Below are positions 30,816 to 58,700 of a stretch of 64,000 nucleotides of DNA, piece by piece. The notes under the pieces are model-generated. The model worked only from the letters and a program-made list of their open reading frames with translations, did no database searches and was not told the origin of the DNA. Every line of letters starts with the position of its first letter. Within the stretch, counting starts at the first letter, position 1. The stretch comes from a virus, in the IMG/VR virus record IMGVR_UViG_3300042261_001452, positions 1 through 64,000 of that record, one strand, 5' to 3'. A program made the translations under genes and the position numbers.

Positions 30816-33800
30816 TTATTCGCCTTGATAGCCATATATTGTAAGCTTCTGATCAAAATCTTTACTTCCGATTGTGAATGCACTAGCTAGCTTATCCTTA
30901 AGACCTTTACTTTCTGATTTGCTTTCTAGCATGATTGCAGGAATAGCATGACCAGCTTCATTGGTATCTGAGACTGTTGATGCGACTCTAGCGGCTGTCT
31001 TAACAGGGAAGAGTTTATCAGCTACTGAAGCGATCTTATCAATTTCAAATGTTGATAGAGCCTTAATTGCACTCTCATAGGCGTCCATATCATTGGCTAG
31101 TCTGTTATTAGCAATTAGCCATGCTGCAATCTTAGTAGCCTGTTGCTCTCTAGCCTTAGCTATCTTAGAAACCTGATCCTCTCTTTGCTGGCGAACAACC
31201 TTTAACATTTCGTCATTAATTTCGGGCATATCCTTTTGAATTTCCTTTTCATTACCCATATAAGCATTATTCATTGGTACATCTGGTCCCTTTAGAGGCT
31301 TATTAATTAGAGAATCAGCATCCTTTTCTTGACCCATATAGGCTTCTTGACGAGGAACATCTGGTCCCTTATTTGGTGTATTGATAGCAGAATCGGCATC
31401 CTTTTCCTTGCCCATATAGGCATCTTTACGAGGAACATCGGCATCCTTTTCTACTGTATCAACTACTTTCATCTGCTTGGCTTCTTTTGTAACATTCTTG
31501 TCTCCAGCGATAACAGTTCCCTTGATTTCATTATTAATGGCTGGCATACCCTTTTGAGTATTGACTTCATCGCCCATTAGAGAATTACCGACTGGTACAT
31601 CTGGTCCTTTTAGTGGCTTATTAATTAGAGAATTAGCAGATTGTTCCTGTCCCATATAGGCATCCTTACGAGGAACATTTGGGCTATTCATTTTCTTATT
31701 AATTAGAGAATCAGCTTCCTTTTCTTTGCCCATATAGGCATCTTTACGAGGAACGCCAGCTTCAACATTATTTTCAATTGTCTTTACTAATGTTGGAGTC
31801 TTGGCAATCTTTACGATTTCCTCTCCTACCTTTAATACTCTGTGACTTGCCATAGCTTCAACCTCCTTTGCTGTATTATCAGCTTTTGCCTTGCATTCTT
31901 CGCAATCGGCTTTATTACATTCGCATTCCTTTTTGCAAATTTCCTTGACTTCATTTTTTTCTTCTTTTTTCTCTTCTTTCTTCTCTTCTGACTTTACAGG
32001 AGCCTTATCAGTCTTAGCTTCTTTAACAATTTCTACTTCAACTTCGGCTTCCTTTAGAGCAGGAAGATCAGAGCCAATATCCTTTTCTAGCTCAGCTTCT
32101 TTAGCAGCTACAACTTTCTTTTGTGCGGCGGCTACAGCTTCCTGATCAATCTTTTGAAGAGTGATTAGGTCGTATTTAGTAAGTCTATCTTCTTTACCAG
32201 CTACTACATCCTTTCCAAAAGCATGGACATAGATATTGTCTGCATGTTCAGAAGCTTTTGCTTTCTTAATGCAACCACAAATGTCACTTGCTTCCTTTAG
32301 ATTATAGCCTTGCTTTTTCTGATCAGCAATGCATTCATCCATTGGGTCTTTTTGTAGAGAAGCTTCTGCTAGTCTTATCATATCCTTTACTTTTGTAAAA
32401 GCTAGTCTTTGGAGACTCTTACATACGCAATCTGCTAGAGCCTTACCCTTGCAAGGCCCGAAAGTCGCAACAGTATTTCCACCATAGCTTCTTGCCATTC
32501 TTTCAATACAATTTGCCATTGGGAAAGAATCCTTATTCTGAGTAGCGGCCTTTAGCATTTTGGTCATCTTTAGTGAAGATGCAAACTTAGCAGCCTTTTC
32601 TTCGCAACCTTGACACTTAGTATCATGTCTAAGATCCCACTTGACTCTTAGATAGCTTTCTTTTGGATTTGCAGCAGCAATTAGAATATCTTTTACTACT
32701 TCAGTCTTGCAAGAAGGACAAGTGAATTCTGTATGACCATCATCTTCCTTAGAGGCTGTGCAATTCTTTTTACCACAGGCAGGACAGACATGACCATGCG
32801 CCTTTACATTGCTACCAATTCTACGGATTGAACCCTTATCAATTCTCGTCTGGGCAGCTACAGGTAGGGCTGGAACTTCTGCTGGAGCTTCTGGAGCCTC
32901 AGCACCTTCTGGTTCACCTTTCCCCGGAGTCTTACCTACGCTTACGGTAGGCTTAATAATCTTAAACTCAACTTCTTTCTTTAGAAGAGCCTCATATTCT
33001 GCACCACACTTCTGACAAGTACCCTTAATATTTCCTTTGTCATTTGTAACATCAACATCAGATGTTCCGCATTCTGGACAGATTGTCCAAGGCATTTGTT
33101 GCTCGCCTACAGTTGGGATGTCTTCTGCAATTTCCTTCCCTTCTGCTGGGGCATCCATTGTAAGTGATTGGATTGCGTCGCCTTGTGGAGCAGCGCCCGG
33201 AAGAGCCTGTTCAGGAGCGCCAGAAGCAGCTACGCCACCGGGAGTACCGGGAACACCACCACCCATAGGAGACTGAGCTATTTTCTTAAGAGCTACTTTC
33301 TTTGAGGCCATAGTAGGAGCCATTGCGGGAGCGGCACCTGTGGGAGCAGCAGCGGGAGCGGCAGGTGGTAGGGCAGATAGAGCATCTACTCCTTCTCCTG
33401 TCATATCGCCTTCTGGAACAATCTCTTCTGTTTCGGGCTGAGTTGTATCGCCAACAGGAATTTCTACTTCTTGATCGCCTTCATCTGTTTGGACTGCAAT
33501 CTGAATAGTATCACCACTAATAGTAACATTGGTTACAGCAGCTAGCTTAATATTCTGAGAGGCAAGTGCTCCTTTAGCAAAAGATCTTATATCCTTTTTA
33601 AAAGTTGCGCTTTCTTTCGTACTTCCAAGTTCAGAAAAATTTGTTTCAATAACAGTATCAGCGCCATTTAACCCTTTTGGATTAAGAATGTTATTGGCTT
33701 GTCTTTTTTGACCTTTTTCAAGAGCAGCTAGAATTTCTTTTCTTTCTGTCTCTCTCTGTTTCTTTGAGTCAACAGCTTTATCAACTGTAGAAGCTAGAAG

Positions 33801-34640
33801 AGCATTTCTTAGTTCTTCCTTACGAGAAGTTTTCTTTACTTCCTTTGTAGAAGCAAGTTTCTCTTCGACCTTCTTAGTGATTACTGGAACTGCTGTTTCT
33901 TCAGAGACAACTTCAAGAGCATCAATTAGAACATCAGGATTAATTGTGGAATCTGTAGCAATTTTTCTTAGTCCACCAACAAGAATTTCGGCAATTTGCT
34001 GTTTTCCAGCACTTGCAACCTTTAGATTCTTATTGTTCCAGAATGCAATTCTCTTGGCATAATTAATATCTTCCTTATCTTCAGTCTGCTCAAGAATAGA
34101 AGTTGCTAGGTAATAACGATTCTTTACTGAATCTACCATAGAAGAGGCAACTAGTTGAACTTCCTCAGGGGTGCAACCGGCAGTAATTATTGTATTTGCA
34201 GCAGCTTCAACAACAGCAGCCATGTGATCAGCGGCACTCTTAAACTGTTTAGGATCACGACTAGCTGATCTTGCCCAAGGAGCAGAGATATCATCAAGTT
34301 GTTTTTCAGTTATAACGTCTTTTTCAGACTTTGCACGATAATCAGCTAACTGAGCCTGAGTAATCTGATTTGCATCAGTATTTTCTCTTACAGCCTCTAG
34401 TTGCTTTTCGCTAATAACTTCTGGAGTAGCATTTTCTCTCTTGGAGTCAAGTTGCTTTTCTGTAACAACTTCCTGCTCTCCCTTACGTTTAGCTTCTAGC
34501 TGGGCTTGAGTTACTTGTTCTGCATCAACGCCTGTTCTGGCATGATATAGATCTTTCTGCTCAAGTTGTTTTTCGGTAATTACTTCTGGAGCCTTATTCA
34601 CAGAGGTAGCTCCTGCACTCTTATTTATTTCGGTTGCCAT
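30816..34640 (-). CDS. Nested in-frame scaffold candidate (internal start)
   Basis: At codon 569 of the 1842-aa frame stands AGGAG, five bases, ATG GCA (MATEINKSAGATSVNK), a layout identical to the true gene starts of this window. Internal initiation here would yield a 1274-aa product without the protease domain, starting exactly at the EKQL repeats. Lambda makes its scaffold Nu3 in this way from inside protease gene C. The proposal is inference; the ribosome site is seen in the sequence. Confidence 0.55.
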   Translation of the reverse strand: MATEINKSAGATSVNKAPEVITEKQLEQKDLYHARTGVDAEQVTQAQLEAKRKGEQEVVTEKQLDSKRENATPEVISEKQLEAVRENTDANQITQAQLADYRAKSEKDVITEKQLDDISAPWARSASRDPKQFKSAADHMAAVVEAAANTIITAGCTPEEVQLVASSMVDSVKNRYYLATSILEQTEDKEDINYAKRIAFWNNKNLKVASAGKQQIAEILVGGLRKIATDSTINPDVLIDALEVVSEETAVPVITKKVEEKLASTKEVKKTSRKEELRNALLASTVDKAVDSKKQRETERKEILAALEKGQKRQANNILNPKGLNGADTVIETNFSELGSTKESATFKKDIRSFAKGALASQNIKLAAVTNVTISGDTIQIAVQTDEGDQEVEIPVGDTTQPETEEIVPEGDMTGEGVDALSALPPAAPAAAPTGAAPAMAPTMASKKVALKKIAQSPMGGGVPGTPGGVAASGAPEQALPGAAPQGDAIQSLTMDAPAEGKEIAEDIPTVGEQQMPWTICPECGTSDVDVTNDKGNIKGTCQKCGAEYEALLKKEVEFKIIKPTVSVGKTPGKGEPEGAEAPEAPAEVPALPVAAQTRIDKGSIRRIGSNVKAHGHVCPACGKKNCTASKEDDGHTEFTCPSCKTEVVKDILIAAANPKESYLRVKWDLRHDTKCQGCEEKAAKFASSLKMTKMLKAATQNKDSFPMANCIERMARSYGGNTVATFGPCKGKALADCVCKSLQRLAFTKVKDMIRLAEASLQKDPMDECIADQKKQGYNLKEASDICGCIKKAKASEHADNIYVHAFGKDVVAGKEDRLTKYDLITLQKIDQEAVAAAQKKVVAAKEAELEKDIGSDLPALKEAEVEVEIVKEAKTDKAPVKSEEKKEEKKEEKNEVKEICKKECECNKADCEECKAKADNTAKEVEAMASHRVLKVGEEIVKIAKTPTLVKTIENNVEAGVPRKDAYMGKEKEADSLINKKMNSPNVPRKDAYMGQEQSANSLINKPLKGPDVPVGNSLMGDEVNTQKGMPAINNEIKGTVIAGDKNVTKEAKQMKVVDTVEKDADVPRKDAYMGKEKDADSAINTPNKGPDVPRQEAYMGQEKDADSLINKPLKGPDVPMNNAYMGNEKEIQKDMPEINDEMLKVVRQQREDQVSKIAKAREQQATKIAAWLIANNRLANDMDAYESAIKALSTFEIDKIASVADKLFPVKTAARVASTVSDTNEAGHAIPAIMLESKSESKGLKDKLASAFTIGSKDFDQKLTIYGYQGE

Positions 34641-36344
34641 ATTTTCTCCTTCTTTTTGCTTTTTGGTTAGACTTGCAAATGTTTCTAATAACTTAATAGA
34701 AGCTTCTCTTGGTGAATTTTTAATTGTTGTTTTGTCATCTTCCGTCAAATCCTCATATGTCCAAACAATCCTATCTTCTTCAGAATTTAGTTTATTCTCT
34801 GCGACAATTATGAAAGAATCATCTTTCTTACTTATCGTCAGGCGATTTTCATTATCCTGAATAGAAGGCATTTCTTTTATATACTCGAAAAAGTCTTGTT
34901 TTTCCTTCCAAGAATTTGACAAAATTTGCATTACTCTCTCTTTCTGCTCATTTTTAGCAGCTAAAGTTCTTCTTTTAGACATATTAGACATATCTAAATC
35001 TCCCATTTTGTTCAGTTTTTCATTTAAATTTGCTACTTTTAAGAACATTTCTTCCTGTGATAGCTTATTGTTATTATTACTTATACTGCAAGAACAATTA
35101 TTTTCTGCAACTTTTTGAATTATATTATCTTCTTGAGAGGCTTTTGGTCTAATAGGTGCCGTAATAGGTAGTTTAGGTAATTTTAATGCGGAAGACTTAG
35201 CAGGAGCAGAAGCAGGTGTTTCTACTGTTGCAGGAGTTGCTTCTGGTGTTTCTTCGGCACTAATAGGTGTTGGAACAGCCCCACCAGCAGCAGGAGTATT
35301 AGGAGTAGGTACAGGAGCAGGAGCGGGAGCAGCAGGAGCTTGTCCTTCTTCTACATTGCCTGCTGTTCCGGGGACTCCACTATCTTGAAGATTGCCATAA
35401 CCAGCACCAACTAGTTCATCTACCCATGTTTGTAAATTAGAAAGAATCTCTACAAGATCAGTAGAAAACTCCATTTCTACTTGTTTTCTATTCTTAATTA
35501 AATTAATAGCGATATTTTCTAGTGTTTGTAAAACTTGCTCTAAGTCTTTAATTTCTTGTTGACCAGCAGTTTTATTTAAAGAAGCTGTCTTAACTAGATA
35601 ATCTCTTACTGTATTTTCAAGGTTAGCAGCTTTTGTTAGAAAATCATCATTATGAATAATTCCTTGAATATGGCATGTTGGGCAAGCAGGATCTACTACT
35701 GCACTTAATTCAATAAACTTAAGGCCATAATTATACTCATAAACTGGATGATCTTTAAATGTCTTAAATTCTCCAGTTATTACATCTCTTGCTTTTCCAC
35801 TGAATTTTCTACCTTTCTTTTCTTTAATATGAGAACAATATTGCTCTGTTTTTTCGGCCTTATTATGACAAATATTACATACAGAATATTCAACGCTGCA
35901 ACCCATCGAAACACCACTCACGTATTCTTCTTCAATACCTCTGCAAATATCTGGATAAGCATCTCTATCTACGAAAGCTACTGTATAAACTGATTTATCT
36001 GAGGGATTCCATCTTGCAAAAATTACTTTTCCTCTAGCATTTTCAATATTTTGATTATTATGATTTGTAAATATTGGTACTCCTTCAAAGGTCTTATAAG
36101 CTTTTACAAGTTCTTCTTCTGAGAAATAATCTCCATTAGAATTCATCTTATTGGCTTCAATAGCTTTTGCTTCGAAAAATAAGGCATTTGGATGCTTTTT
36201 AATCTCAGCAGAAACAATCTTAGATACCTCACTAGAAGGATCAATATTAATGCGACCAGAAGCAGCAGTCCGCATCATATAATTAGAACCATTATTTTCT
36301 ATTGGAGTAACATTAGAAAATGATAAAGCTATTTTTCTTAACAT
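30816..36344 (-). CDS. Giant prohead protease-scaffold polyprotein
   Basis: 1842 aa. Residues 60-240 carry a prohead serine protease of the herpes-assemblin/T4 gp21 type: NGDYFSEEEL, histidine H95 in GVPIFTNHN, and serine S146 in YVSGVSMGCS. A C-x-x-C...C-x-H insert (156-175) may bind zinc. The following 1600 residues are unlike any single family. They hold coiled coils, P/A/G-rich linkers, six 'EKQL' repeats (about 582-690), two four-cysteine ribbons (CPECG...CQKCG; CPACG...CPSC) and six 'RKDAYMGKEKDADS' repeats. A start with strong ribosome site lies inside at 34640. The gene is directly downstream of the 860-aa gene and before the capsid genes, so a combined protease and scaffold is likely. 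Confidence 0.75.
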   Translation of the reverse strand: MLRKIALSFSNVTPIENNGSNYMMRTAASGRINIDPSSEVSKIVSAEIKKHPNALFFEAKAIEANKMNSNGDYFSEEELVKAYKTFEGVPIFTNHNNQNIENARGKVIFARWNPSDKSVYTVAFVDRDAYPDICRGIEEEYVSGVSMGCSVEYSVCNICHNKAEKTEQYCSHIKEKKGRKFSGKARDVITGEFKTFKDHPVYEYNYGLKFIELSAVVDPACPTCHIQGIIHNDDFLTKAANLENTVRDYLVKTASLNKTAGQQEIKDLEQVLQTLENIAINLIKNRKQVEMEFSTDLVEILSNLQTWVDELVGAGYGNLQDSGVPGTAGNVEEGQAPAAPAPAPVPTPNTPAAGGAVPTPISAEETPEATPATVETPASAPAKSSALKLPKLPITAPIRPKASQEDNIIQKVAENNCSCSISNNNNKLSQEEMFLKVANLNEKLNKMGDLDMSNMSKRRTLAAKNEQKERVMQILSNSWKEKQDFFEYIKEMPSIQDNENRLTISKKDDSFIIVAENKLNSEEDRIVWTYEDLTEDDKTTIKNSPREASIKLLETFASLTKKQKEGENMATEINKSAGATSVNKAPEVITEKQLEQKDLYHARTGVDAEQVTQAQLEAKRKGEQEVVTEKQLDSKRENATPEVISEKQLEAVRENTDANQITQAQLADYRAKSEKDVITEKQLDDISAPWARSASRDPKQFKSAADHMAAVVEAAANTIITAGCTPEEVQLVASSMVDSVKNRYYLATSILEQTEDKEDINYAKRIAFWNNKNLKVASAGKQQIAEILVGGLRKIATDSTINPDVLIDALEVVSEETAVPVITKKVEEKLASTKEVKKTSRKEELRNALLASTVDKAVDSKKQRETERKEILAALEKGQKRQANNILNPKGLNGADTVIETNFSELGSTKESATFKKDIRSFAKGALASQNIKLAAVTNVTISGDTIQIAVQTDEGDQEVEIPVGDTTQPETEEIVPEGDMTGEGVDALSALPPAAPAAAPTGAAPAMAPTMASKKVALKKIAQSPMGGGVPGTPGGVAASGAPEQALPGAAPQGDAIQSLTMDAPAEGKEIAEDIPTVGEQQMPWTICPECGTSDVDVTNDKGNIKGTCQKCGAEYEALLKKEVEFKIIKPTVSVGKTPGKGEPEGAEAPEAPAEVPALPVAAQTRIDKGSIRRIGSNVKAHGHVCPACGKKNCTASKEDDGHTEFTCPSCKTEVVKDILIAAANPKESYLRVKWDLRHDTKCQGCEEKAAKFASSLKMTKMLKAATQNKDSFPMANCIERMARSYGGNTVATFGPCKGKALADCVCKSLQRLAFTKVKDMIRLAEASLQKDPMDECIADQKKQGYNLKEASDICGCIKKAKASEHADNIYVHAFGKDVVAGKEDRLTKYDLITLQKIDQEAVAAAQKKVVAAKEAELEKDIGSDLPALKEAEVEVEIVKEAKTDKAPVKSEEKKEEKKEEKNEVKEICKKECECNKADCEECKAKADNTAKEVEAMASHRVLKVGEEIVKIAKTPTLVKTIENNVEAGVPRKDAYMGKEKEADSLINKKMNSPNVPRKDAYMGQEQSANSLINKPLKGPDVPVGNSLMGDEVNTQKGMPAINNEIKGTVIAGDKNVTKEAKQMKVVDTVEKDADVPRKDAYMGKEKDADSAINTPNKGPDVPRQEAYMGQEKDADSLINKPLKGPDVPMNNAYMGNEKEIQKDMPEINDEMLKVVRQQREDQVSKIAKAREQQATKIAAWLIANNRLANDMDAYESAIKALSTFEIDKIASVADKLFPVKTAARVASTVSDTNEAGHAIPAIMLESKSESKGLKDKLASAFTIGSKDFDQKLTIYGYQGE
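31229..31760 (-). repeat. Repeat array coding RKDAYMGKEKDADSLIN units
   Basis: At least six imperfect units of about 25-30 residues, of the form (P)xVPRKDAYMG(K/Q)E(K/Q)xADSxIN(K/T), with two variants (VPVGNSLMGDE, VPMNNAYMGNE). They lie near the C-terminus of the 1842-aa protein. Confidence 0.85.
34280..34600 (-). repeat. Repeat array coding VITEKQL / QITQAQL units
   Basis: Six units with EVITEKQLE, QVTQAQLEA, EVVTEKQLD, EVISEKQLE, QITQAQLAD and DVITEKQLD, about 17-20 residues apart, right after the internal start. A related pattern occurs at the start of the 450-aa protein next to terL. Confidence 0.85.
34638..34651 (-). promoter_or_regulatory. Internal ribosome binding site AAGGAG-AAAAT-ATG
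   Basis: AGGAG at 34650-34646, spacing 5, ATG at 34640-34638, inside an open frame. It is as strong as the sites of the capsid and tail tube genes. Confidence 0.7.
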
Positions 36345-39509: not shown

Positions 39510-42500
39510 TCAAGAATTAGCAGGCGAATTATTTTGATTCTTTTCTGCCTGAGCAACTTGATTTTGGAAATACATTTGTTTTTGCATTACAGTCTTAACA
39601 ATCTTTTGTATTACTTGAGGCATTCTTTTATCTACATCTGTATCCCAAAATCTTACTGTAGTCCAGCCTTGTTGAGCCAATAACTTATCTCTTTCTTGAT
39701 CTTTAGCCTTTTGCTTAGGAGCAGTATGGAAGATTTCTCCATCTACTTCTACTGCAACCTTAAGTTGAGGGAAAGCAAAGTCAATAACATATTCTTCCCC
39801 ATTAGCTTGCACTCTATATTGAGGAACAATTACTAAATTTCCTAATAGTCCATCATTTTGAGCTTGTTTAAGAGGGCCTATTAATTTTCTTTCTGCTCCA
39901 GTAAAGGCAATTCTTCCCTTTTCATCTCTTATTTGTCCATCTGTGCCTTTTTCATATGAAATTTCACTTGCCTTTGTTTCATGTCTTTGTTGTCTCATTT
40001 GATCACTAAGAAATTTGGCTCTTGTCTTTTGTTTTAGAATTTTTCCACCAAATTGACCCGGATCAGCTACTTCAGCAGTAACAGAAGATGCCTTTGAAAT
40101 TGGAGGCCCACCTACACCACCGCCAACAGGTTCAGATGGTGCGCCCATATCTCCACCGGGGGCTATTGGGGGTTCTCCGCCTCCGCCTCCGCCTCCTCCA
40201 CCGCCACCACCAAGCATTGCGCCTAATCCTCCTAATCCACCGCCCCCTCCACCGGAACCGCCTGCTTCTCCTTGTTGACCTTGACCCAATGCCATCATTT
40301 GTAGTGAGTCATATTTCTTTCTCTCAATTTCCTGATCTGGATCAAAATCAAAGGCTTCCAATACTGTTTGAGCACTTAATAATCCTTTCTCATATAATTG
40401 AATTACAAATTGTCTATATTGTTGTTGATCTCTTAAATGCATTGAATTCCATTTAATTTTAGGAACAATATATTCTATCTCTTCCCCTTCATCATCCTCG
40501 TCAATAAATCCTTGTCTTTTAGCTTCTGGAATATAAATTGATTCCATCAGCCAAGAAGTAATACTCTCTCTAAATGTAGTTAATCTTTGAATCATTGCTT
40601 CAATACCAACTGCTGCTGCGCTATTCCCATGAACGCCAAATAAGCCATTTCTTTCAGTAATTATAAAATGGTTTGGAACTTCGACACACCAAACCTTACC
40701 TACATAATCTTCATCAAAAATAACTTGTTTGCTAGTTTGTGACTCAGTAGCCATATCTCTAGAAGTTAGCGTTGGAAATCTTCCAATATTTTCTTTGTCA
40801 GACCAGCTTATCGTATATTGCGTTTGTAGATTTGGACTATCAAACATAATCTTAGTAAATCTTGGACTATATCCTAATTTAAGCAATATTTCTATTACGT
40901 CATCTCGTAATTGTGTTGAAACGGTTGTATAGCTATAACATTTTTTATCTGTTGGCTTTTTCTTTGTTGCATCTCTTTCGCTGCCATCTCCATCTACCAA
41001 CGCCTCTAGTAAAATAGCTAGATTTTTAGAATCCATATTTTTTAATTCATATGGAAGACACTTCGTATTTGCTTTATCTCCAGTATTATTTGCTAAATAT
41101 TGAACAAGTTCTCTATTCATAGAATTTGAAATAATAAAAGCATCAAGATTAGATGGAAGAGTATGAAAAATATTATTAGCCTCTAAAGTATTTTTCATTT
41201 TAGCATATGTAATTCTATTAGCTGTAGAACTTTGAGCGATTCCTATTGAATAAATGTTGCCAGTATTTGCATCTTTTATTTTCCATCCTTCACTAACATA
41301 CCATCCAACAATTTTTAAGAAATCAGGAGTCTTTATCCCAAAATATTCTCCTTTATCTTCCGTTGTTCCATTCCATTTATCAACACAAGCTCTAAATCTA
41401 TAGCGATTTTTAACTTTTGAAGCATCCATTACTTGCCAATTGCCATATTCTTCTTTTTTAAATGAAATTTTTCTAGGAGCGCAGAGCATCTTATGGTTTG
41501 GAGTAACTAACATATCGATTCTCTTGGTCAAAAAATGTTTCATCGGAGCATCTTTTCCATCAACAGAATTATAATTATATTCCCACTTTTTGATAGCCTT
41601 TTGATATTCTAATGCTCCTGTTTCCTTATTAAAAGTAGCTATTAGATCTTTTTCAATATCTAATTCTGACCTATACTTTAATCCATTGTTAGTTAATATT
41701 CTGGAATCATCTGACAGGCAAAAATTAGGGCCTTCGCCGTTTAATAATGCATTATTAATCATCATACCATCAAGTATTTCTTGATTAATAAATTCAAACT
41801 CATTATTTAATGTTAAGATTTTTCCAGAAGCGCCAACGAAGTCGATATCAAATGCATGGTGAGTAATAATTGCAAGATTAGGATCATTGGCTGTTGCAGC
41901 TACGCTTGCCTGAACTGCTGCAATATCGGCTGGGCCAGCAGGACGTTCATCACTACCTACTTTAACTAATTTAATAGGAACTATTAATCTTTCAGCAACA
42001 ATCCATTGAGCAACCATTAATTTTGTCTTATAAGAAAGAGTAGGAAATAATCTTCTTACCATACCAATTCCATATTTTTCATATCCACATTCGCCATATT
42101 TAAGGTGAGAAACATTGCGATTATCAAGTCTAATAGGTTGGCCACTAGCAATTAATTTAATTACTTCAGGTGATAATTTTTCATATCCGGGAATTTTCCT
42201 TGATACCATATTTATTAGTTCTTCATCTGGTCTTAAGGCAATTATTGGCTCTGGATTAAGTGGATTGGTTAGTACCTCTACATAGTCTGGATTTAAAATA
42301 ATTAGTCTTTTTACAGTTCCACCATTATGTTCGCAAATATCAGTTCCAATTCTTCCAGACCCATTACATTCTGGGCAAGATATTTCTACCATTGGGAAAC
42401 AATCTCCAAGAAGATGAACTTCATGGCTAATTAATCGGCACCAGTACGGTAGTTTTAATCTTATTTTAAGTTTATCAAAGTGTTTTTTAATCTTTTGATC

Positions 42501-43877
42501 TCTGCATTCATGCTCCCAATTACTCATTGGAAATAAAGAATAAAAGTCAATAGAAGAACCAACTTTAGGTTCATTTTGATAAAAGAATCTACAGTTAGAA
42601 ACTTTAAAACCTGATAGAGTATAAGATCTTTCAGGATCTATTTGCATATCATAGCCAACTCCAGAATATAGGAATTTCTTTATTTCCTTGATTGGCTGGC
42701 AAAAGTATTTTATTCCATTTTGCTCTTTAAAGAATTTAAGTTCTTGTTTTTCTTGTTTTGAATTTATCGAAATATTTTCTGGAATTCTTTCAGTCTGCAT
42801 ATATTTTTTAAATTTGCCAATATCTGCATATGAAACAGAAATCAAGTGCATGCTATCCTTGCAAGTTATATTTGCCTTTATTCCACAGCGGATCAACATC
42901 CACCAAATTTGGTCTGAAATATCTTTAGAATAACTAGTTGCATTTAGAGTATTTTCTTTGAAATCATAATATCCATCACAATCAAAATATCCCGCCAAGA
43001 CATTAAGAATTTCTTTTTCTGATAGATTAAAAATATTCTTAGTAAATTTCTTTTTGCTGGTTTGTCCAACAATATAGTTTCTAAACTGAGAATGAGTAAT
43101 GGTAGTCTTATTCTTTTTTATTAAAATAGATGTGAAAGTAGGTAGGTCATAGACAGATGAAATACTAGCTATTTTTGAAATACATAATCCTAATAGCCAT
43201 GCTTTACTATTTCCAATTGTCTCTTGGTTATTAAACGGAACACAAGGAGTTAATAGATAGTCATTAAAAGAGACATCCTTCGCTTGTTTTTTCACAATCG
43301 AATTAACTTTCTTGTCAAAAACAAATATATTGTGTTCTTCTGTTACTGAAAAATGATTACAGTGTTCGATTGCAGAAAACTTATATGATTCTTTATCTTT
43401 ACAAATTCTTTCTCCCCATTTTACAGGCTTTCTAATATTTCCATCTCCTGAAAGGATAGAAGGAGAAATAGGATCTTCATATAATATTCCATTAGTGATA
43501 GAGTCTTCGGAGATATTTCCAGATACTTCAAAGCTTTCAATATTTTGATAAGTATAGTCTTCTGCTAGAATTTGCCCACTTATTACCATCCATTGATAAA
43601 TTTCAAGTCTCTTACTTGGAATTTGCCAGTTAATATTTGTATGAACTGGAGAGAAGAAAGAAGGTTGACCATAAATAGTTCCACCACCTCCAGCAGAAGC
43701 AGTTCTCATATTTCCCCCAACATTTATGAATGCTGAAGGTGCATAATTGCTTCTAGGAATAGGTTTATAACCCGGATTCTCTGGAACGATAGTATTTTGA
43801 ACTCTTAATGGATCTCTATTTCTTAAGGCTTGAAATGTTTCAGATAAATTAGTAGTTTGAATGAGTGGGTCCGCCAT
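39510..43877 (-). CDS. Portal protein with two inteins and C-terminal Vsr/DUF559-like nuclease domain
   Basis: 1455 aa before splicing, about 757 aa after removing two inteins (residues 97-428 and 720-1085). The extein parts join into a portal: LEIYQW + CRFFYQNEPKVGSSIDFYSLFPMS, then HLLGDCFPMVEISCPECNGSG, and GEGPNF + SAAAVGIEAMIQRLTTF. After a glycine-rich linker (40100-40290), residues about 1340-1445 read YVIDFAFP, VAVEVDGEIFH (E1377, D1379), KDQERDKLLAQQGW and TVRFWDTDV. This is the restriction-like fold of Vsr/DUF559 nucleases with its acidic residues kept. The protein would form the dodecameric DNA gate of the head. Fusion of a nuclease to a portal is highly unusual; cutting or holding DNA at packaging or exit are both possible. 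Confidence 0.8.
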   Translation of the reverse strand: MADPLIQTTNLSETFQALRNRDPLRVQNTIVPENPGYKPIPRSNYAPSAFINVGGNMRTASAGGGGTIYGQPSFFSPVHTNINWQIPSKRLEIYQWMVISGQILAEDYTYQNIESFEVSGNISEDSITNGILYEDPISPSILSGDGNIRKPVKWGERICKDKESYKFSAIEHCNHFSVTEEHNIFVFDKKVNSIVKKQAKDVSFNDYLLTPCVPFNNQETIGNSKAWLLGLCISKIASISSVYDLPTFTSILIKKNKTTITHSQFRNYIVGQTSKKKFTKNIFNLSEKEILNVLAGYFDCDGYYDFKENTLNATSYSKDISDQIWWMLIRCGIKANITCKDSMHLISVSYADIGKFKKYMQTERIPENISINSKQEKQELKFFKEQNGIKYFCQPIKEIKKFLYSGVGYDMQIDPERSYTLSGFKVSNCRFFYQNEPKVGSSIDFYSLFPMSNWEHECRDQKIKKHFDKLKIRLKLPYWCRLISHEVHLLGDCFPMVEISCPECNGSGRIGTDICEHNGGTVKRLIILNPDYVEVLTNPLNPEPIIALRPDEELINMVSRKIPGYEKLSPEVIKLIASGQPIRLDNRNVSHLKYGECGYEKYGIGMVRRLFPTLSYKTKLMVAQWIVAERLIVPIKLVKVGSDERPAGPADIAAVQASVAATANDPNLAIITHHAFDIDFVGASGKILTLNNEFEFINQEILDGMMINNALLNGEGPNFCLSDDSRILTNNGLKYRSELDIEKDLIATFNKETGALEYQKAIKKWEYNYNSVDGKDAPMKHFLTKRIDMLVTPNHKMLCAPRKISFKKEEYGNWQVMDASKVKNRYRFRACVDKWNGTTEDKGEYFGIKTPDFLKIVGWYVSEGWKIKDANTGNIYSIGIAQSSTANRITYAKMKNTLEANNIFHTLPSNLDAFIISNSMNRELVQYLANNTGDKANTKCLPYELKNMDSKNLAILLEALVDGDGSERDATKKKPTDKKCYSYTTVSTQLRDDVIEILLKLGYSPRFTKIMFDSPNLQTQYTISWSDKENIGRFPTLTSRDMATESQTSKQVIFDEDYVGKVWCVEVPNHFIITERNGLFGVHGNSAAAVGIEAMIQRLTTFRESITSWLMESIYIPEAKRQGFIDEDDEGEEIEYIVPKIKWNSMHLRDQQQYRQFVIQLYEKGLLSAQTVLEAFDFDPDQEIERKKYDSLQMMALGQGQQGEAGGSGGGGGGLGGLGAMLGGGGGGGGGGGGEPPIAPGGDMGAPSEPVGGGVGGPPISKASSVTAEVADPGQFGGKILKQKTRAKFLSDQMRQQRHETKASEISYEKGTDGQIRDEKGRIAFTGAERKLIGPLKQAQNDGLLGNLVIVPQYRVQANGEEYVIDFAFPQLKVAVEVDGEIFHTAPKQKAKDQERDKLLAQQGWTTVRFWDTDVDKRMPQVIQKIVKTVMQKQMYFQNQVAQAEKNQNNSPANS
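40623..41720 (-). other. Intein 2 in portal (366 aa), LAGLIDADG type
   Basis: Begins with Cys (CLSDDSRILTNNGL), block B IDMLVTPNHKML, endonuclease motifs LKIVGWYVSEGW and LLEALVDGDGS, and ends FIITERNGLFGVHGN before Ser. All classical splice residues are present, so it should be active. It splits the portal sequence GPNF/SAAAVG. Confidence 0.92.
42594..43589 (-). other. Intein 1 in portal (332 aa), with DOD endonuclease remnant
   Basis: Splice blocks: block B HFSVTEEHNIFVF; block F YDMQIDPERSYTLSGF; block G ending KVSN followed by extein C. The endonuclease motif NVLAGYFDCDGYY is present, while the first one (WLLGLCISKIAS) is degenerate. The residue after extein W96 is methionine (MVISGQILAEDY), not Cys or Ser, and the residue before the final Asn is Ser instead of His. 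Either splicing is unusual or this intein has decayed. Confidence 0.7.
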
Positions 43878-46530: not shown

Positions 46531-49500
46531 TTATTTCCTTTGCTTATTTTGTATTTGCTCTGATTCTGTCATATCAAATAATTCTACTGGGGCAACCATG
46601 CATTGTCCATTCCAGAACATTCCTACACCTACATCTTCTAGTTTATCAAAGGCTTTTGAATCCTTAGCTTTTTTATCAGCATCTAGTCTTCTTATTATCT
46701 CTCTAAACTCCTCAGCCTTCTCAGGTGACAATTGTTGATTATTTTTTAATTCATTATCAAGTTTCTTTAGGCCCTTATCAGCTATTGTATTATTATAAGC
46801 AACAACCAACTTATCATCTTGTATAATTCCTTTATTCTTTAAGAAGCTATATAGATAATCAGTTGATGTCGTTGCCCGAGCTACATTATCAGTGGATTGA
46901 TTCTGTAAATTGGGTTTATTTTCCTGCTTTTTAACCTTTGTCTTATCAGTCTCTTCTCCCTTTTTAGGTTTTTCTGGAGTCTTAGCTGGAGGAGTTATTT
47001 TTTCTTGAGTGGTTTCTGCGGTTGGCTCTTCTTGATCCTCCTTCATTCCTTCATCCTTAAGATCTTGCATTGTCTTAGTTTTCTTAACAGGAACTCTTTC
47101 AAGTTTTGTCTTTGTGGGATCGTTAGGATCAGGGACTTCTATAGTAACCACTCCATATTGATCTTCCTCTTCCTCTTCTTTTTTCAGAGGGGCTTTACCA
47201 TCAACAAGTTCTTGTAACTCTTTTGGCAAACGATAAACTTTTCTCATTACTGGATTTTTAGGATCTTTTTGAACTACTGTTGGATCTGGAACCATAACTT
47301 CTTCCAATGGTTTAGAAGCTAATAGTTCTGAAGTTTCTTTATGAATCTTTGTAGCATAGTCTCCAACACCTAGTTTATCCTTGCCTTCTCTATCTACTAG
47401 TGATTCATTGATTGCCCCTAATAGGTTTTCAGTTGTAAAAGGAAGTCCCATCATAGGAGTTTTTACTCCTCTCTTTAAGCTATCTTGCCATTGTGCATAA
47501 GAATCATATTCCTTGAACATCATTTCTACTAAGTTTACAATTGAACGAACACCTAAGTGTTTACCTACTAGAGCTTTAGCAATTGCATCAACATCTACTT
47601 TGTTTTCTCTTAGGATATTTCTAATAACATCCCATCTTTGCTTAGGAGTATTGCCAAAGCTAGGTTGTGATAGCCAAGGATGATTAGGTCTAGCTTGTTC
47701 TTCATCATCAATGCATTCATTTAAGAATCTAACAAATTCTGAAGGATCATCTGGAGGTAGAACTTCCATTTGTCCCATCTGTCCTCTATTTTTTAGAGCG
47801 TTATCGAGATTTGCGACATTATTAGTGGTCATAATGACGAAGATATTTCTATTGATTAATAATTCTTGATTATCTCTTTCAAAGAATTGTAAGAATTTCT
47901 TTACTTGTTCTTTTGTTGTTTCATGAGTTTCTTGAGCGGCACCACCACCTCCGCCTCCACTAGTGCCTTGAGATAACATTCTGTCAATTTCGTCAAAGAT
48001 ATATATGCAGTTTCTAGAATCTGCAATATGTTCAATTAATAGATCGGTAAGTCTTCCTGTTTCTCCTAGCCATTTATTCTTTGTCTGTTCAACATTTACA
48101 GAATATAAAGAAATAGGCTCGCCAACTGTTTGAATAATATCTGCTAGAGCTTCCCCCCAAACAGTTTTACCAACTCCCGGTTTACCATATAGAATTGTAA
48201 AGTGAGGAATAGCAGTTTGCAGGAAAATAGAAGCCTGAGCTTTTAAATCTTTCCACATTCTATTGCTAGCAACAATTTCTTGACTATACATCTCTTTTGT
48301 TGCTTTATCTTTTGCAGAATCCCTTAATCTAGTTAATTCTTTAATCTTTTTAGCTATCTTGCTCATTTCTTCCCCATTTTCACTCAAAATGAGAAGTTTT
48401 GTCTTAATTTCCTCCATCTTTTCACCCCATCCACCTTTCTTATTATAGATGAATGATTTAAATTTAACTCTTGGAGTTTTGGCAACAATACCCATCGTCT
48501 GGCCTTTGCGCTCATTTGTTTCTTTAACTAGATTTTCTTTGGCGGTATCTGCATCAAAATAAATGCCCATTCTTTGACCTTGTTCATCATAAAGGGTTTC
48601 ATTTAATCCATGAAGATTTTCACTTATAGTTTTATTTACTAGATCAATTGCATCTTTTTGACTTAATCCAATAATTGCATTAACTAAAGCATTTACCACA
48701 TCTTTAGATTGAGAATCTATTGTCCCTTTACTTCTTTCTTTTTCAAATTCTGTCTTTGCCTTTTCGAGTTCACTAACAAGAGTATTTGGATCATCTTCAT
48801 ACTCTTCTTCCAACTCTTCTTGTTTTCTATAAAGTCTTGCATCAACCATTTTATTAATAAATGGCCCCATCATATGCCTAACAATAATTCTTGCCTCTTC
48901 ATCGGTAACTGGGAATGCTGCTAAGTCTGCATATTTGGCACCTTCAATTTTAATCTTTTCATTGGATATAAAAACAATTCTTCTTCCATCTGGAATTGAT
49001 TTGCCTTCAATAGCTTTAAGATCTCTCGCGGCACAAGTATCAAAGAAGTCACTAAATCTTTTTTGATCTTGTAGCTGATATCTATAGCCTTGGCCTTCAT
49101 CTTTCTTGTCGGATCTATTGCTATCAAATGGTTGAATGACAGCACATCTATCCATATTTTGAAGAACCATTGTCTTGCCATGAGAACTTGCTTTAGCATT
49201 AAACTTTCTCATTTCTTCTTGTATGTTGCTTTGTTTAGCTAGAATTAGTCTAATTGTCTGAGAAGGATCTTCTTGCCCTTGCGGATTTTTAATTTTAGCT
49301 GTTAAAATTCCTAAAATATTATTTTTAATGCCAATTAACTCTTCGTCTGTAGTTTGATATTCTTCTAATTTTGTACTTAGTATTTCTAGACTTCTATTAA
49401 AATCTGCTATGATAGATTCTTGACTTTGAGATCTATTTGCTCTATCTATTTGTCCACGAAAATCTTTATAAGATTCATTAAGCCATTTTAATGGATTCCA

Positions 49501-50748
49501 AGTTGCAAATCCACCTTCTCTAATATCTTCTAAACTAAAATTCTTATATAGTCCAGTTCTGCCGAATAAGGCTCTTACTGTTAAGGAATTTGCTGGTAAA
49601 AATTTTGTCTGTCCTGCTTCTTCTTCTGGCAATTGTGAAGCAGCAAAGGCTTCTTGAAGATTAACGCTTCTTCCAGACCTAAGCATATTATAATAATTAA
49701 TACAGACTCCTCTTTCTCTTCTATACTGCTGAAGAATGGTTGACTTTACATTTTCATGTAGCTTTTCCTCTATTTTATTTAAAATGGATATAGCCTCTAG
49801 ATCAGCAGGAGAATTCATAACCGCCTCTTCATCCATATTAAGCAATCTTAATCTATCATTATAAATTGCTAATTCTTCTTTGGTTAAGTCACGAAGAATC
49901 TCTTCCTGTGACTCATATAATTTATTATTTCTTTTATCTTCTAATATTTTTTGGATTTTTTTCTGTCTTGCCTGAAGACTCTTATTAATTTTGGCATATC
50001 TTTCTTTAACTTCTTTAACATTAACAGGATTGCCATCATCGTCAAATGAGGTGACATTCTTGGCACGTTCAGTATTAGCTGCTATAGCATTGTTAATTCT
50101 TTCTAGTTCTATTTCTATTCCTTTATATTCTCTATCTAGCAAGAGTCTTTTATGGGCCTCTCTCATTTTCATAGCAGTTGTCGATTCTTCCATTATCTCT
50201 TTAAGGTTCTTTTCAAATTCTATAATAGATTCTTTTATTTTTTTGCTATTTCCCGTTTGAGATCCATCTGGACTAAAAATTTGGTCAATAATAGAAAGAT
50301 CAAATCCCTTCTCTTCTAACCAACTAGGAGTAACAACTCTTTCTTGTCCATAGAGAAGAGAATCAATATTATTGACCACGTTTGGATAATCCGTTGTTAA
50401 TCTTTTACCTAGAAGATCATCAGTTGTAACATCTTGGAAGTAATCTTCTGGAAGACTAGCATTTGTTGCGTCTGGATAATAAACTTCATTGTTTGATGGA
50501 GGAATAGCATAACGCATAAGCATTTCAACTAATGGCATATAAGGATCAGTACCAATTACAAAATTTACCATGCCTGTTGATCTTAGTTTAGAATATAATC
50601 TTTCATATTTGGGCAACTTACAAATAGCATCTAACATTTTATAATTGGCAACATCTTTTGTTCCCAAAACATCATTAAAATGTCCTAAGGCTGCTTGTTT
50701 CTTTAGTTTATTATTATGAATTTTCTTTATAGCTATTATTTTAAACAT
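46531..50748 (-). CDS. Giant AAA+ ATPase (1405 aa)
   Basis: About 840 residues of mostly helical sequence precede one AAA+ module: Walker A YGKPGVGKT (854-861), Walker B IYIFDEID (about 913-920), sensor-1 IFVIMTTNN, and an arginine-finger-like NRGQMGQ. The C-terminal 300 residues are a charged linker and a small domain ending GVGMFWNGQCMVAPVELFDM. Such large AAA+ proteins normally work as hexameric unfoldases or remodelling machines. It is placed in the head operon between the second AAA+ gene and portal-side genes, so a role in capsid assembly, maturation or DNA handling is plausible. I cannot name the family. Confidence 0.75.
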   Translation of the reverse strand: MFKIIAIKKIHNNKLKKQAALGHFNDVLGTKDVANYKMLDAICKLPKYERLYSKLRSTGMVNFVIGTDPYMPLVEMLMRYAIPPSNNEVYYPDATNASLPEDYFQDVTTDDLLGKRLTTDYPNVVNNIDSLLYGQERVVTPSWLEEKGFDLSIIDQIFSPDGSQTGNSKKIKESIIEFEKNLKEIMEESTTAMKMREAHKRLLLDREYKGIEIELERINNAIAANTERAKNVTSFDDDGNPVNVKEVKERYAKINKSLQARQKKIQKILEDKRNNKLYESQEEILRDLTKEELAIYNDRLRLLNMDEEAVMNSPADLEAISILNKIEEKLHENVKSTILQQYRRERGVCINYYNMLRSGRSVNLQEAFAASQLPEEEAGQTKFLPANSLTVRALFGRTGLYKNFSLEDIREGGFATWNPLKWLNESYKDFRGQIDRANRSQSQESIIADFNRSLEILSTKLEEYQTTDEELIGIKNNILGILTAKIKNPQGQEDPSQTIRLILAKQSNIQEEMRKFNAKASSHGKTMVLQNMDRCAVIQPFDSNRSDKKDEGQGYRYQLQDQKRFSDFFDTCAARDLKAIEGKSIPDGRRIVFISNEKIKIEGAKYADLAAFPVTDEEARIIVRHMMGPFINKMVDARLYRKQEELEEEYEDDPNTLVSELEKAKTEFEKERSKGTIDSQSKDVVNALVNAIIGLSQKDAIDLVNKTISENLHGLNETLYDEQGQRMGIYFDADTAKENLVKETNERKGQTMGIVAKTPRVKFKSFIYNKKGGWGEKMEEIKTKLLILSENGEEMSKIAKKIKELTRLRDSAKDKATKEMYSQEIVASNRMWKDLKAQASIFLQTAIPHFTILYGKPGVGKTVWGEALADIIQTVGEPISLYSVNVEQTKNKWLGETGRLTDLLIEHIADSRNCIYIFDEIDRMLSQGTSGGGGGGAAQETHETTKEQVKKFLQFFERDNQELLINRNIFVIMTTNNVANLDNALKNRGQMGQMEVLPPDDPSEFVRFLNECIDDEEQARPNHPWLSQPSFGNTPKQRWDVIRNILRENKVDVDAIAKALVGKHLGVRSIVNLVEMMFKEYDSYAQWQDSLKRGVKTPMMGLPFTTENLLGAINESLVDREGKDKLGVGDYATKIHKETSELLASKPLEEVMVPDPTVVQKDPKNPVMRKVYRLPKELQELVDGKAPLKKEEEEEDQYGVVTIEVPDPNDPTKTKLERVPVKKTKTMQDLKDEGMKEDQEEPTAETTQEKITPPAKTPEKPKKGEETDKTKVKKQENKPNLQNQSTDNVARATTSTDYLYSFLKNKGIIQDDKLVVAYNNTIADKGLKKLDNELKNNQQLSPEKAEEFREIIRRLDADKKAKDSKAFDKLEDVGVGMFWNGQCMVAPVELFDMTESEQIQNKQRK

Positions 50749-50827: not shown

Positions 50828-52771
50828 TTATCCCTCTATAAATCCTCTTTCTTTTACGGGAAAAGGAAGTTCAAGTTGTTCTTCTTTATTTTCTTCCTCT
50901 TCTGTAAAGAATTGTCTATCTCCTAACACTAATTCTCCTGTTCCATTTTTTCTTACAGAGCCTTGACTATTCTCAAGGATCTTTATAAAATTTTCAGAAT
51001 TCCACTTGATTCCTTCCCCTGTTTTTACAAAGAAATAATCATATGTAGCCATTTCCACTAATAATGTCTCAACATCTCTAACTGTAAACCCCTTAATTGT
51101 CGCTATATGTGCTATTCTATCTAAATCTAATTTATTAATCTTTTCTTGAAATGTTTCTGCCGAACTATAGCCTATAATCTTAATGCCTCTATTATTCATT
51201 CTTCTGGCAGAGGTCAATAATGTCTCTTTTAAAGATTTGGCATCAAAGTTGTCAATATTTATTACTAAATCTGCTCTTCCAGATCTTAATAATGGGCCTG
51301 TTATATTTTCTTTATGGTTAGTTGTTAATACTATAAAGATATTATTTTTAACTAACCCATTCTCTTCTTGAATATTTTGTAACCAATTCATGAATTCAGA
51401 TTCAACCTGCTTATGAGATTCATGCATTCCTTGTCCAGCTTGATTTGTAGCACCAATGGCTCTATCATATTCATCTATCCTTACGATTAAATGAGAGGCA
51501 TTAGCAATTTTTTTCAAACTTTCTCTCATTCTTTCTGCTCCTTCTCCAACCCATTTTGAGTGTACGGCACCTATATTAAAGTCCCATACATCAAATCCTA
51601 ATAATCCTGCCAAATGAATCGGAAAACTACTTTTACCTACTCCACCCTTTCCATAAAGAACTAAAACATGTGGTATTCTAGTTTGTAAGGCTTCTATTGT
51701 TTCAGAATAATAATCATCTTTACAAGATTTTAAGGCTTGATCTTGGGCTTGTTTCAAATCCCTAATTTCATTAAAATCTCTCAATATCTTTTTAACATCA
51801 TATGTAAAACTACTAGTCTCTGGACAAATATAATCTTCCCATGGTCTAGGTATTAATTGCGTGAGTCCAAATCCATCTTCCATAAAATTCTTATTAATTT
51901 TATCTCTTAATACTTTTACTAATGCATTTCCGTTAATAATTGTTTCATCTACTTTATCTTTTGACCTAGAAAAAGCATATCCTAAAATATCACCTGCATT
52001 AAGATAAGTTAGACCAGAAACTTTTCTTAAAATTTGTTCTCTATGAGAATGATTCATAAGAACTTTATATTTGTAGTTATTAAATAAAAAGATATAACTA
52101 TCCAATAAATGATCTGCACCAAATTTATCAACTGGAGGAAGTTCAATAGTTCTTATCTTAAAAGGAAATTGCAATTTTATATTTGATATCAATAATAATC
52201 TACAAGACTTTCTATTTGTGACATTTCTAAAATCATCAAAAATCCATAAGGCTCTTTGATCTATTCTTCCGGGTTCTTTACAAAAATCTAGACTATAATC
52301 AATATTTCTTATTACCAGATATTTATCTTTAAAATCATTTAGTAAAACTTCTTTCCTAGAAACAAATCCATCTGGTTTTCTCAATCTTTTACCAGTTTGA
52401 TAATCTATTTTAAAGGTTGGCATTCCATTAGAATCAATTTCAGTTTCAAAATTACCATAAATAAGTTCATCTAAAGATGTTGTACTATTGCTTGCTCCGG
52501 GCGAACCTTTTTGAAGTTCGACAGCATCTATTTTAGTAGTATTACGAAATAACTCTTGTTTTTTAAAACAATCATCCAAGAAAAAATCAACAAGGCAAGG
52601 ATCTTCATAATTTACAACTAAATTGGTTATTCCTGTTAAAGATAGCTTAATGGCTCCCAAAAGTTCTTTTTTAGTTTCTTGAAAACGCTCGCTATTTTGA
52701 ATAAGTGAAATAAAATCAATATTCTTTTTGATTTTTTGATTATTTTCTTCAATATTAATATCTTCTGCCAT
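50828..52771 (-). CDS. AAA+ ATPase (647 aa), leaderless candidate
   Basis: Start ATG at 52771 (MAEDINIEENNQKI), six bases after TATAAT and without ribosome site. Walker A LYGKGGVGKSS (near residue 370), Walker B LIVRIDEYDRA (near 425), sensor FIVLTTNH and GRADLVINID. The N-terminal 360 residues are helical and contain no known domain. It is a second, shorter AAA+ beside the 1405-aa one, so the two could form a mixed ring or divide initial and late steps. The role is not known. Confidence 0.75.
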   Translation of the reverse strand: MAEDINIEENNQKIKKNIDFISLIQNSERFQETKKELLGAIKLSLTGITNLVVNYEDPCLVDFFLDDCFKKQELFRNTTKIDAVELQKGSPGASNSTTSLDELIYGNFETEIDSNGMPTFKIDYQTGKRLRKPDGFVSRKEVLLNDFKDKYLVIRNIDYSLDFCKEPGRIDQRALWIFDDFRNVTNRKSCRLLLISNIKLQFPFKIRTIELPPVDKFGADHLLDSYIFLFNNYKYKVLMNHSHREQILRKVSGLTYLNAGDILGYAFSRSKDKVDETIINGNALVKVLRDKINKNFMEDGFGLTQLIPRPWEDYICPETSSFTYDVKKILRDFNEIRDLKQAQDQALKSCKDDYYSETIEALQTRIPHVLVLYGKGGVGKSSFPIHLAGLLGFDVWDFNIGAVHSKWVGEGAERMRESLKKIANASHLIVRIDEYDRAIGATNQAGQGMHESHKQVESEFMNWLQNIQEENGLVKNNIFIVLTTNHKENITGPLLRSGRADLVINIDNFDAKSLKETLLTSARRMNNRGIKIIGYSSAETFQEKINKLDLDRIAHIATIKGFTVRDVETLLVEMATYDYFFVKTGEGIKWNSENFIKILENSQGSVRKNGTGELVLGDRQFFTEEEENKEEQLELPFPVKERGFIEG

Positions 52772-52777
52772 TTTATT

Positions 52778-52786
52778 ATTATACAA
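52778..52786 (-). promoter_or_regulatory. Promoter TTGTATAAT with TATAAT-N6-ATG spacing
   Basis: TATAAT at 52783-52778, six bases, ATG at 52771. A start of transcription at normal distance would fall on the A of the ATG, giving a leaderless message. Confidence 0.6.
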
Positions 52787-55705: not shown

Positions 55706-58700
55706 TTAGTCTCCTATTAGTTTTTCTAATCTAAATTTCTTCAAAATATCCCTTAATTCCTCTCCATCTTTACAATTAAATAAAGTAGATATATTTTCAT
55801 TTATGTAAATTCTATACTTTTCATCAAATAATAAATTTGAATTTGATATAATTGCAACCATAAGATCTTCTGAAATATTATATCCCTCAATATTATATTT
55901 AATCGCTCTTACAATAATCATCGGATTGAGTTTAACTACTTCATTAGCATCTAAAACAGTCTCTAATGTATTATTATTTATATCTTCTACCGCTCTCCCA
56001 AGAATATCAATAATATTATTATCACATATATTAAGAGCCAATGTATTTATTGTAAAATCTCTATTGCATGCTGACCTGACTAAGCTATTTTTTAAATGTT
56101 CTTCATTTAATTCTTCAGTAAGCTTATTTAATTTTGGATAATGAGCAGATTTACTAAAATCTAGCTGTATTCCTTTATATACAAACGAAAGGCCAAAACG
56201 AGCACTTTCATAAATGTCTTCCCCACTAACGCCAAGTTTTTCCATTAAGGCATAGCCTATCTTTTGGCAAACATCTGGATTATTTGCGATAAATTCTAGT
56301 TTATTAATATTAAAGTCCTTATTAAGATAAATTCTTCTAGGCAAATCACCAATAATATAAAAATTGCTATATTCTAACTCCTTACATATATGCTTAATAT
56401 TAGATACAATAGACTTAATATTACTCTCTCTTTTCTCCTTAATACCAATAATCTTCTCTACTATATTCTTTAGCTCTTCTTTTACTTCATTATTTTGAAA
56501 ATAAGATTCACAATCATCTATTAAAGTATCTCTTAATTCTTCTGAAAAAAGCCAAATTGCACAAACATCTTCCCAATCTCCAATTGTTTTTGGAGGAATA
56601 TCATATGTATTGACTCTTATTCCATCCTTGGGCATCATTTTAATTATAAAGTCAGAGAATCCTTTATTTGTAACTATTCTACTTGCCTTGATTTTATTAT
56701 TTAGAATACTATATTCTATAGTTCTTAAAATCTTTAAAATATCAATAATTTCTTTATCTAATTGTCCTTTTTGTGCAAATCTTAAAGCTGGAGTTGTATG
56801 AGAATAATCTCTTGTCATATCATCAAATAACTGAGGACGGAATCTAGGCTCAATCCATCTATAATAAAACCCTTTGACATCATATTCTGGGTTATATCTT
56901 GGCTGCTTGCGAATTTCTTTATCACTCCATGCAAAATCTTCATCTCTATCATCCCAAGCCATTACTCTATCGCTTAATCCGGGAATAGTGCTTCCATCTG
57001 AAATATCAAGATTATTAAACCATCCAAATAGGAATCTATCTCCAGCTTTTCTCGCTTCTTTCTTAAAAGGATCATAAGAAAAAGCTTTAATATTCTCTAT
57101 CTTTAGATTTTCTGTAATAGGAATCATTAATGGCTTAGGTCTTTTATTCTCTAAAAGCATTTCGAGAGAAGTATAGCCTATAGATTCATCTCTGCTAGGC
57201 TCCAATAATTCTTCCATGATTAATTTTACATTTGGCCTAGAATCCATTCTAGTTTGTTTTCTTAATTGTTCTTCAATACTATTGTCTCTTTGAGATATAT
57301 CAGGAGCAAGATATTGTCTATTATCTCTTGCAATCTCTAACCTTCTATCGGTTGGGTCGCCTGAGCGTTGAGTTAGAATCATCGACCAATCAGGCAAAGA
57401 AGATAAATTAGATTGAGAAAGATATCTTCCTTGAATATCTGAGCCAGTAGGCTGTCCACTTAAAACAGACCCAGACATATGAGGACGAAATTGGGCTTGT
57501 TTATACCAAGAGTTACTTTGAGCATGAATTGTTTCGTGACCTACAGAAAGAGGCGTATAATATTTTTCTAAATTAGAACTCTGAAGCCGTTTCATATATT
57601 CTGAATTTACATAGTTGGTTTGCGCCCATGCTCTAAATTTAGCTTCTTCTGCTTCTGCTGGTCCTTCACTTGTAGCTCCCTTAGAGTGAGTAGCTTCATG
57701 TACAATTGTTGCAGCTAAATGATATATCCCAAGAACATTTGTTAAAATTTGCTTGATTTCACTAGGCAAATTAGGATCTTGGTTTCTTAACCCATCAATA
57801 ATATTATTAACATTTTGATTGGTGGCACTAATTATTCCGCTCATATTAAGACCAATAGCTGTTCCTCCACCACTTTCTATTTGTCTCCATAGTGAATCTA
57901 TATCTTCTTCTACCTTGGCTTGATCAATAGCATCATCTTTAGGATAGGCAAACAACATATTATTTTCATCTTTAATGATATAGCCTTTTTGTTCTAACTT
58001 CTTCTTAAGAAGATTAGTTTTAATAGCTCTATCTAAGGCTGGAACATAAACGCCAAAAGCCCCGCCTTTAGAGAAATTAAACACAAATGCTATATTTCTG
58101 AGAAAATCTCCAGAATATTTATTTACTAGTTGAATAGCTTCATTTGTTCCACCAAAGACTCCTGCAATTTGAGAGGCATCAACAGATGACGTTCCTATAA
58201 ATCTTTCAGCATGCTCGGGAATATTGCCAGAAAAATATCCATCGAAATCTGTTGGTTTTTCTATCTTCATTTGAGCATTTTTCTTTATCCCTTCATACCA
58301 ATTAGAAGCAATATTCTCATCAAACAAGTTTCTCATTCTCTTTAGTTTCTTAATTCTTTCCATTTCTGGGGAAATCGTTGAAGATGGAGTCTTTTCTTCC
58401 TCGTCTGTATCCTCTTGTGAAGCTTGTTCTGATTGTGGTAATGGCTTTACTTCTGGAGTTTGTGGAATTTTATCTTCTGCTTCCTGAGAAGGCATATCAT
58501 AATTTTTAGGTCTATTTAGTTCAAAATTCCAGTTGTTCTTTGTAGCATCAACTGGAATATAATTTATATTTTCTGATCCCACATACTTTTTCTCAGATTT
58601 TGCTGATTCAATAGCTTTTCTTAAAATAACTCTTACCTCATCTATGTTTTCTCTATATGTTTCTTGCAATGGTTGAACCTTAGATTGATTTTCACTTTCA

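Follow-up and report, generated by a model that had tools for sequence, protein, structure and literature searches.

Introduction

To our knowledge, phage portals are regarded as DNA-conducting rings with nothing more at the C-terminus than a crown or a helical barrel. Among the described DNA cutters that work at a portal is T4 endonuclease VII (gp49), whose endonuclease VII/HNH-type fold is unrelated to that of the domain described here. It is a separate protein that associates non-covalently with the portal gp20 during packaging and frees branched DNA stalled at the motor (PMC10893049, PMC9958956). T4 gp4, likewise a separate protein, is a TnsA-like nuclease of the restriction endonuclease (REase) fold required in head maturation (PMC7824862). 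The closest described portal is gp14 of Bacillus phage G (PHROG 16240), which ends in a Pro/Gly-rich disordered extension without a nuclease domain; DUF559 was not found anywhere in the phage G record. Proteins of the DUF559 family (PF04480; structure 3hrl) stand alone or are fused elsewhere, with no earlier link to a portal in the sources searched. Here we describe a portal gene of a clade of huge phages in which such a nuclease is joined covalently to the portal.

Results

The window analysed here, a stretch of 64,000 nucleotides, is part of an 86.6-kb IMG/VR virus record (IMGVR_UViG_3300042261_001452, positions 1 to 64,000). A portal ORF with an ATG start lies on its minus strand at 39510-43877, and the frame is uninterrupted across portal, linker and C-terminal tail. 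Profile searches matched the portal part to PHROG 16240, the phage-G-type portal (E 4.8e-35), and the tail to Pfam DUF559 (55.7 bits against a curated cut-off of 20.6, E 5.2e-15), a score that excludes a chance match. One ORF thus bears both signatures, in agreement with the initial annotation, which had proposed that portal and Vsr/DUF559-type nuclease are physically one protein. Genes for the prohead protease and the major head protein come after the portal gene, forming a head-packaging cluster; the protease (phrog_18299, E 2e-15) lies within an 1842-residue ORF at 30816-36344 on the minus strand, and the large terminase (TerL) gene occupies 63894-65564 of the same record.

The length of 1455 residues originally assigned to the portal is that of the unspliced ORF. 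Two inteins had gone unmentioned, and once these are removed the protein has ~757 residues, resembling intein-free relatives, most of which measure 711-766 residues. Comparison with those relatives placed both inteins and divided the ORF as follows, all on the minus strand. Portal extein 1 (residues 1-96; 43590-43877) precedes intein 1 (residues 97-428; 42594-43589), which carries a LAGLIDADG domain, begins with Met and ends in SN ahead of a Cys. Extein 2 (residues 429-719; 41721-42593) holds the wing, stem and clip core, matches PHROG 16240 and is homologous to phage G gp14 (35% identity over 292 residues). Intein 2 (residues 720-1085; 40623-41720) begins with Cys, ends in HGN ahead of a Ser and contains a LAGLIDADG-type homing endonuclease. 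Extein 3 (residues 1086-1202; 40272-40622), delimited by alignment to the model of an intein-free relative (L004), comprises the end of the wing and the crown. It is followed by a Gly/Pro-rich linker (residues 1203-1272; 40062-40271) that appears disordered from its sequence and from the low confidence of the equivalent stretch in the L004 model, and by the conserved tail (residues 1273-1455; 39513-40061).

The tail consists of a basic helix and a nuclease fold of the DUF559/EDxHD type. The initial annotation had assigned the nuclease to the C-terminal 110 residues; a fold of ~110 residues is indeed present, whereas the conserved unit extends to ~183 residues because the basic helix lies ahead of it. 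We located the four motifs it had named exactly as claimed, on the minus strand: IDFAFP at residues 1365-1370 (39768-39785), VAVEVDGEIFH at residues 1374-1384 (39726-39758), KDQERDKLL at residues 1392-1400 and GWTTVRFWD at residues 1404-1412. The Glu in VEVDG is E1377, as numbered there. Net charge spans -17 to +11 among the tails, whose composition is therefore not consistently basic.

A sequence search of the PDB with the tail returned 3hrl (DUF559; 1.5e-9) and 3r3p, the catalytic domain of I-Bth0305I (6e-4). The AlphaFold2 model of the tail had a pLDDT of 80, with values above 90 over much of the nuclease core, and a fold search with this model retrieved 3hrl (TM 0.79 on the target), PvuRts1I, AbaSI, I-Bth0305I (3r3p, E 4e-4) and, more weakly, Vsr. 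A TnsA-type protein from a Pseudomonas phage was also among the structural matches. Similarity to restriction-like nucleases is thus seen alike by Pfam profile, by PDB sequence and by fold, contrary to the outcome that the initial annotation had named as a refutation. Against the Vsr model TIGR00632 the tail scored 19.8 bits, below the curated cut-off of 97.85, indicating a related fold only. The TnsA-like family PF08722 was absent from the Pfam matches of the tail at E <= 1, and the tail had no Pfam match to a NUMOD or zinc-ribbon DNA-binding arm. By profile score, catalytic acidic residues and fold, the tail is a member of the DUF559/PD-(D/E)xK nucleases, and shares with DUF559 proteins the pattern D..ExDG..H..D. 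It is akin to EDxHD homing endonucleases in its catalytic domain, which is related to that of I-Bth0305I by sequence and fold, but it is tethered to a portal and has neither their DNA-binding arm nor the sporadic distribution of a mobile element.

We next considered how widely the fusion occurs. IMG/VR was queried with both the portal core and the tail; together with two phage records, this gave 57 distinct portals after deduplication, from which a maximum-likelihood tree was built on the portal core alone. One clade of 36 portals (support 100/100) carries the tail in 35 members, the other one (L050) ending at a contig edge, while none of the 21 portals outside the clade has it, among them those of phage G and of the 485-kb LR745208 genome. 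The largest tail-bearing contigs measure 476, 379, 347 and 300 kb, which marks the clade as one of huge phages. The initial annotation had asked whether a stop codon separates the two parts in related phages: of the 35 sequences whose tail is complete, 34 have none, and the remaining one (L097), counted among the tail-bearers, has one in-frame TGA in its linker. Most records are fragments, and there is no cultured phage among the tail-bearers. The fusion was not found among 50,697 deposited phage records queried with the tail of the window and with a divergent full-length relative (L101). A search of viral contigs with the single window tail as query returned no relatives, whereas alignment-based searches did retrieve them; one scan of GTDB cellular-genome contigs with the portal core gave no match and hence no clue to the host.

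When 15 free-standing relatives were added to a tree of the nuclease domains, a single branch (92/82) set the portal tails apart, and the chief subclades known from the portal tree recur among them. Both observations argue for vertical inheritance, and the sequences make it most likely that the tail has been passed on alongside the portal since a single gain, with no loss seen in the clade. Phage G and similar relatives outside the clade end in a comparable Gly/Pro-rich disordered stretch; the nuclease was thus probably joined onto a flexible extension already present.

The acidic residues, described as all in place, proved invariant. In 35 of 35 aligned tails, with identity to the window tail dropping as low as 33%, the equivalents of E1329, D1366, E1377, D1379, H1384, D1393, R1396, D1397 and R1409 are unchanged. 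For pairs with usable synonymous distances, dN/dS was 0.016-0.15 in the tail and ~0.03-0.07 in the portal core; many further pairs were synonymously saturated and gave no ratio. The L097 tail beyond the TGA is likewise under strong purifying selection. Together, these data indicate that the tail is a stable, vertically inherited and probably catalytically competent PD-(D/E)xK nuclease domain of the DUF559/EDxHD branch.

To place the tail in the virion we used the AlphaFold2 model of L004, in which the portal spans residues ~85-498 and is followed by a disordered linker (~499-588), a helix and the nuclease (~631-748). Overall pLDDT was 67, a moderate value expected from the disordered linker, and the model does not predict the placement of the domains relative to each other. 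The portal half gave more than 100 structural matches at E <= 0.001, and the matches listed were portal chains of many phages. The portal part closes with three crown-like helices whose order corresponds to the crown, which in the T4 portal is formed by residues 451-524, comprises three C-terminal helices and is the most internal portal domain (PMC4493910). Since the tail follows the crown, the innermost part of the ring in known portals, the nucleases are expected inside the head. By analogy with those portals, up to 12 of them should hang on flexible tethers of ~70-90 residues at the capsid-interior side of the gate, and a folded domain is unlikely to slip back through the channel of roughly 28 Å.

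We also examined whether the phages keep their usual packaging nuclease. In an alignment, TerL retains all three RNase H acidic residues, both in the same record as the window and in tail-bearing relatives; the idea that the tail replaces the terminase nuclease was therefore rejected, and the tail is an additional nuclease. Searches for RuvC, endonuclease VII and TnsA-like families and for the RuvC protein of phage G gave 0 matches in tail-bearing contigs and likewise 0 in tail-less partial records, most records being fragments. As tail-less partial records are equally devoid of matches, the apparent absence of a resolvase from tail-bearing contigs is uninformative as to whether the tail makes up for a missing Holliday-junction resolvase.

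Discussion

As far as the sources searched reach, the combination of a portal with a DUF559 nuclease is undescribed: no portal-nuclease fusion or catalytic portal domain was found in the open-licence literature, and the architecture is in no cultured phage record searched. We suggest, at a probability of roughly 0.4, that the job of the tail is DNA processing tied to packaging, a reading for which we infer catalysis, interior location, substrate and timing. Up to twelve copies would dangle on Gly-rich tethers from the portal crown, inside the capsid, and would cut branches, flaps, damaged stretches or free ends while DNA passes or halts at the portal. The tail would then do, covalently attached, a job similar to that of T4 endonuclease VII on gp20, or be the counterpart of T4 gp4, which shares its fold class but belongs to a different subfamily. 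If so, huge phages would have DNA repair or the processing of ends built into the portal itself, whereas T4 recruits a separate enzyme.

All catalytic readings face the same main difficulty: the packaged genome would lie next to an active nuclease. Because constant activity would put that genome at risk once the head is full, gating must be assumed, and it may act via substrate structure, DNA modification, position or proteolysis. The interior site is also an awkward fit for branch resolution, as branched DNA is held up outside the head, at the motor. The variable net charge of the tails is a further point against the packaging reading. In broader terms, we put at slightly short of even odds the view that the portal itself is an enzyme, a ring whose inner face bears as many as twelve gated nucleases that cut DNA within the capsid, or on its way in, as a regular part of packaging, of end formation or of ejection. 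The sequence does not choose among the activities first put forward, namely trimming or holding the DNA end, clearing competing DNA, or acting on ejected DNA, but the predicted interior position constrains the choice.

A first alternative is an internal effector which, freed by the head-maturation protease or still tethered, would attack the DNA of the host or of a rival during ejection or afterwards, comparable to inner-head proteins and to the nuclease tips of MuF-type head proteins. The phage has its own prohead protease (30816-36344), a long accessible linker lies ahead of the tail, and the anti-phage proteins Hhe and ProA have the same nuclease module at their C-terminus. We nevertheless consider this unlikely: portals are not ejected, effector tips usually differ among relatives while the tail domain is uniform here, and inspection by eye found no cleavage motif common to all linkers, TAE-(V/I)ADP being confined to the subclade of the window.

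It is improbable that the fold merely holds the DNA end or organises the scaffold without cutting. Vsr-like folds, some of them RNA-binding, are known in mitochondria and appeared among our structural matches within mitoribosomes, and a portal-tethered binding domain could account for conservation, yet pure binding does not need the metal-site and active-site residues that are invariant in 35 of 35 divergent tails.

Policing of the vertex, in which the tail would cut DNA that competes or is unmodified, be it from host fragments, other phages or mobile elements, and the phage's own DNA would be protected by modification, is likewise improbable. The modification-dependent enzymes PvuRts1I and AbaSI are among the close structural kin of the tail, and PADLOC matches comprised a methyl-directed type II enzyme and the defence proteins PDC-S37 and Hhe; the location inside the head, however, makes selection before packaging hard.

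The portal gene is rich in inteins, up to four of them, I-Bth0305I is a structural match, and free-standing homing-endonuclease-like phage proteins with zinc-ribbon arms have related nuclease domains. The tail could thus be a selfish element, an EDxHD-type homing endonuclease fused at the 3' end of an intein-hot-spot gene. A homing-endonuclease ancestry is plausible, but a present mobile state is not, and we regard the selfish reading as very improbable: no NUMOD or zinc-ribbon arm is seen, and the tail, present in every complete clade member and in none outside, evolves vertically with the portal. Distribution and vertical inheritance rule out a recent homing-endonuclease insertion. That two genes, or a free gene, were joined by annotation error or misassembly in the low-complexity linker has a negligible chance, since 34 distinct sequences, drawn from many metagenomes, show the same in-frame fusion, the single TGA that parts portal and tail in L097 being the sole exception.

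A conserved, clade-defining nuclease tethered in the head poses the question of how the capsid keeps an apparently active nuclease near its own genome. With an invariant active site in a small, separable domain, this question is open to expression and point mutants.

Additional features of the locus and its relatives

The portal gene of the clade serves as a hot spot for inteins, which occupy several insertion sites, and that of L013 (4937-10459) appears to hold four inteins in one gene. Intein 1 of the window (42594-43589, minus strand) starts with Met, and its equivalents in L013 and L112 with Leu, instead of Cys, Ser or Ala; its boundaries are set by intein-free relatives, and the Pfam Intein_splicing match begins only at profile position 56. 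Possibly, then, this intein works without the usual N-terminal nucleophile. In L081, four ORF pieces on one strand make up the portal gene, which suggests introns. The TerL of L017/L032 (record G008, 34659-34880) has an intein at the second nuclease motif. A stand-alone gene for a 303-residue DUF559 protein resembling homing endonucleases occurs, in addition to the tail, in two tail-bearing huge-phage contigs (G003:222737-222967 and G004:10384-10614).

The lone in-frame TGA of L097 (L097:3635-3637) sits in the Gly-rich linker with an intact nuclease tail after it and may be a sequencing error, a recent mutation or a site of readthrough. In L060, a relative from the phage G clade, the portal is fused in frame with a phage G gp15-like protein, normally the next gene (L060:6596-9643).

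Within the window, the head-maturation protease forms the N-terminus of the ORF at 30816-36344, which also has two zinc-ribbon matches and the repeated motifs VITEKQL and PRKDAYMG. Two AAA+ type ATPases, recognised by Walker-type sequence, are encoded near the portal gene on the minus strand (46531-50748 and 50828-52786), the second of which additionally has PHROG ATPase/clamp-loader matches. The ORF at 26022-28025 (minus strand) is tRNA nucleotidyltransferase-like, and a second, partial match of this kind lies at the C-terminus of the ORF at 55706-59458 (minus strand).
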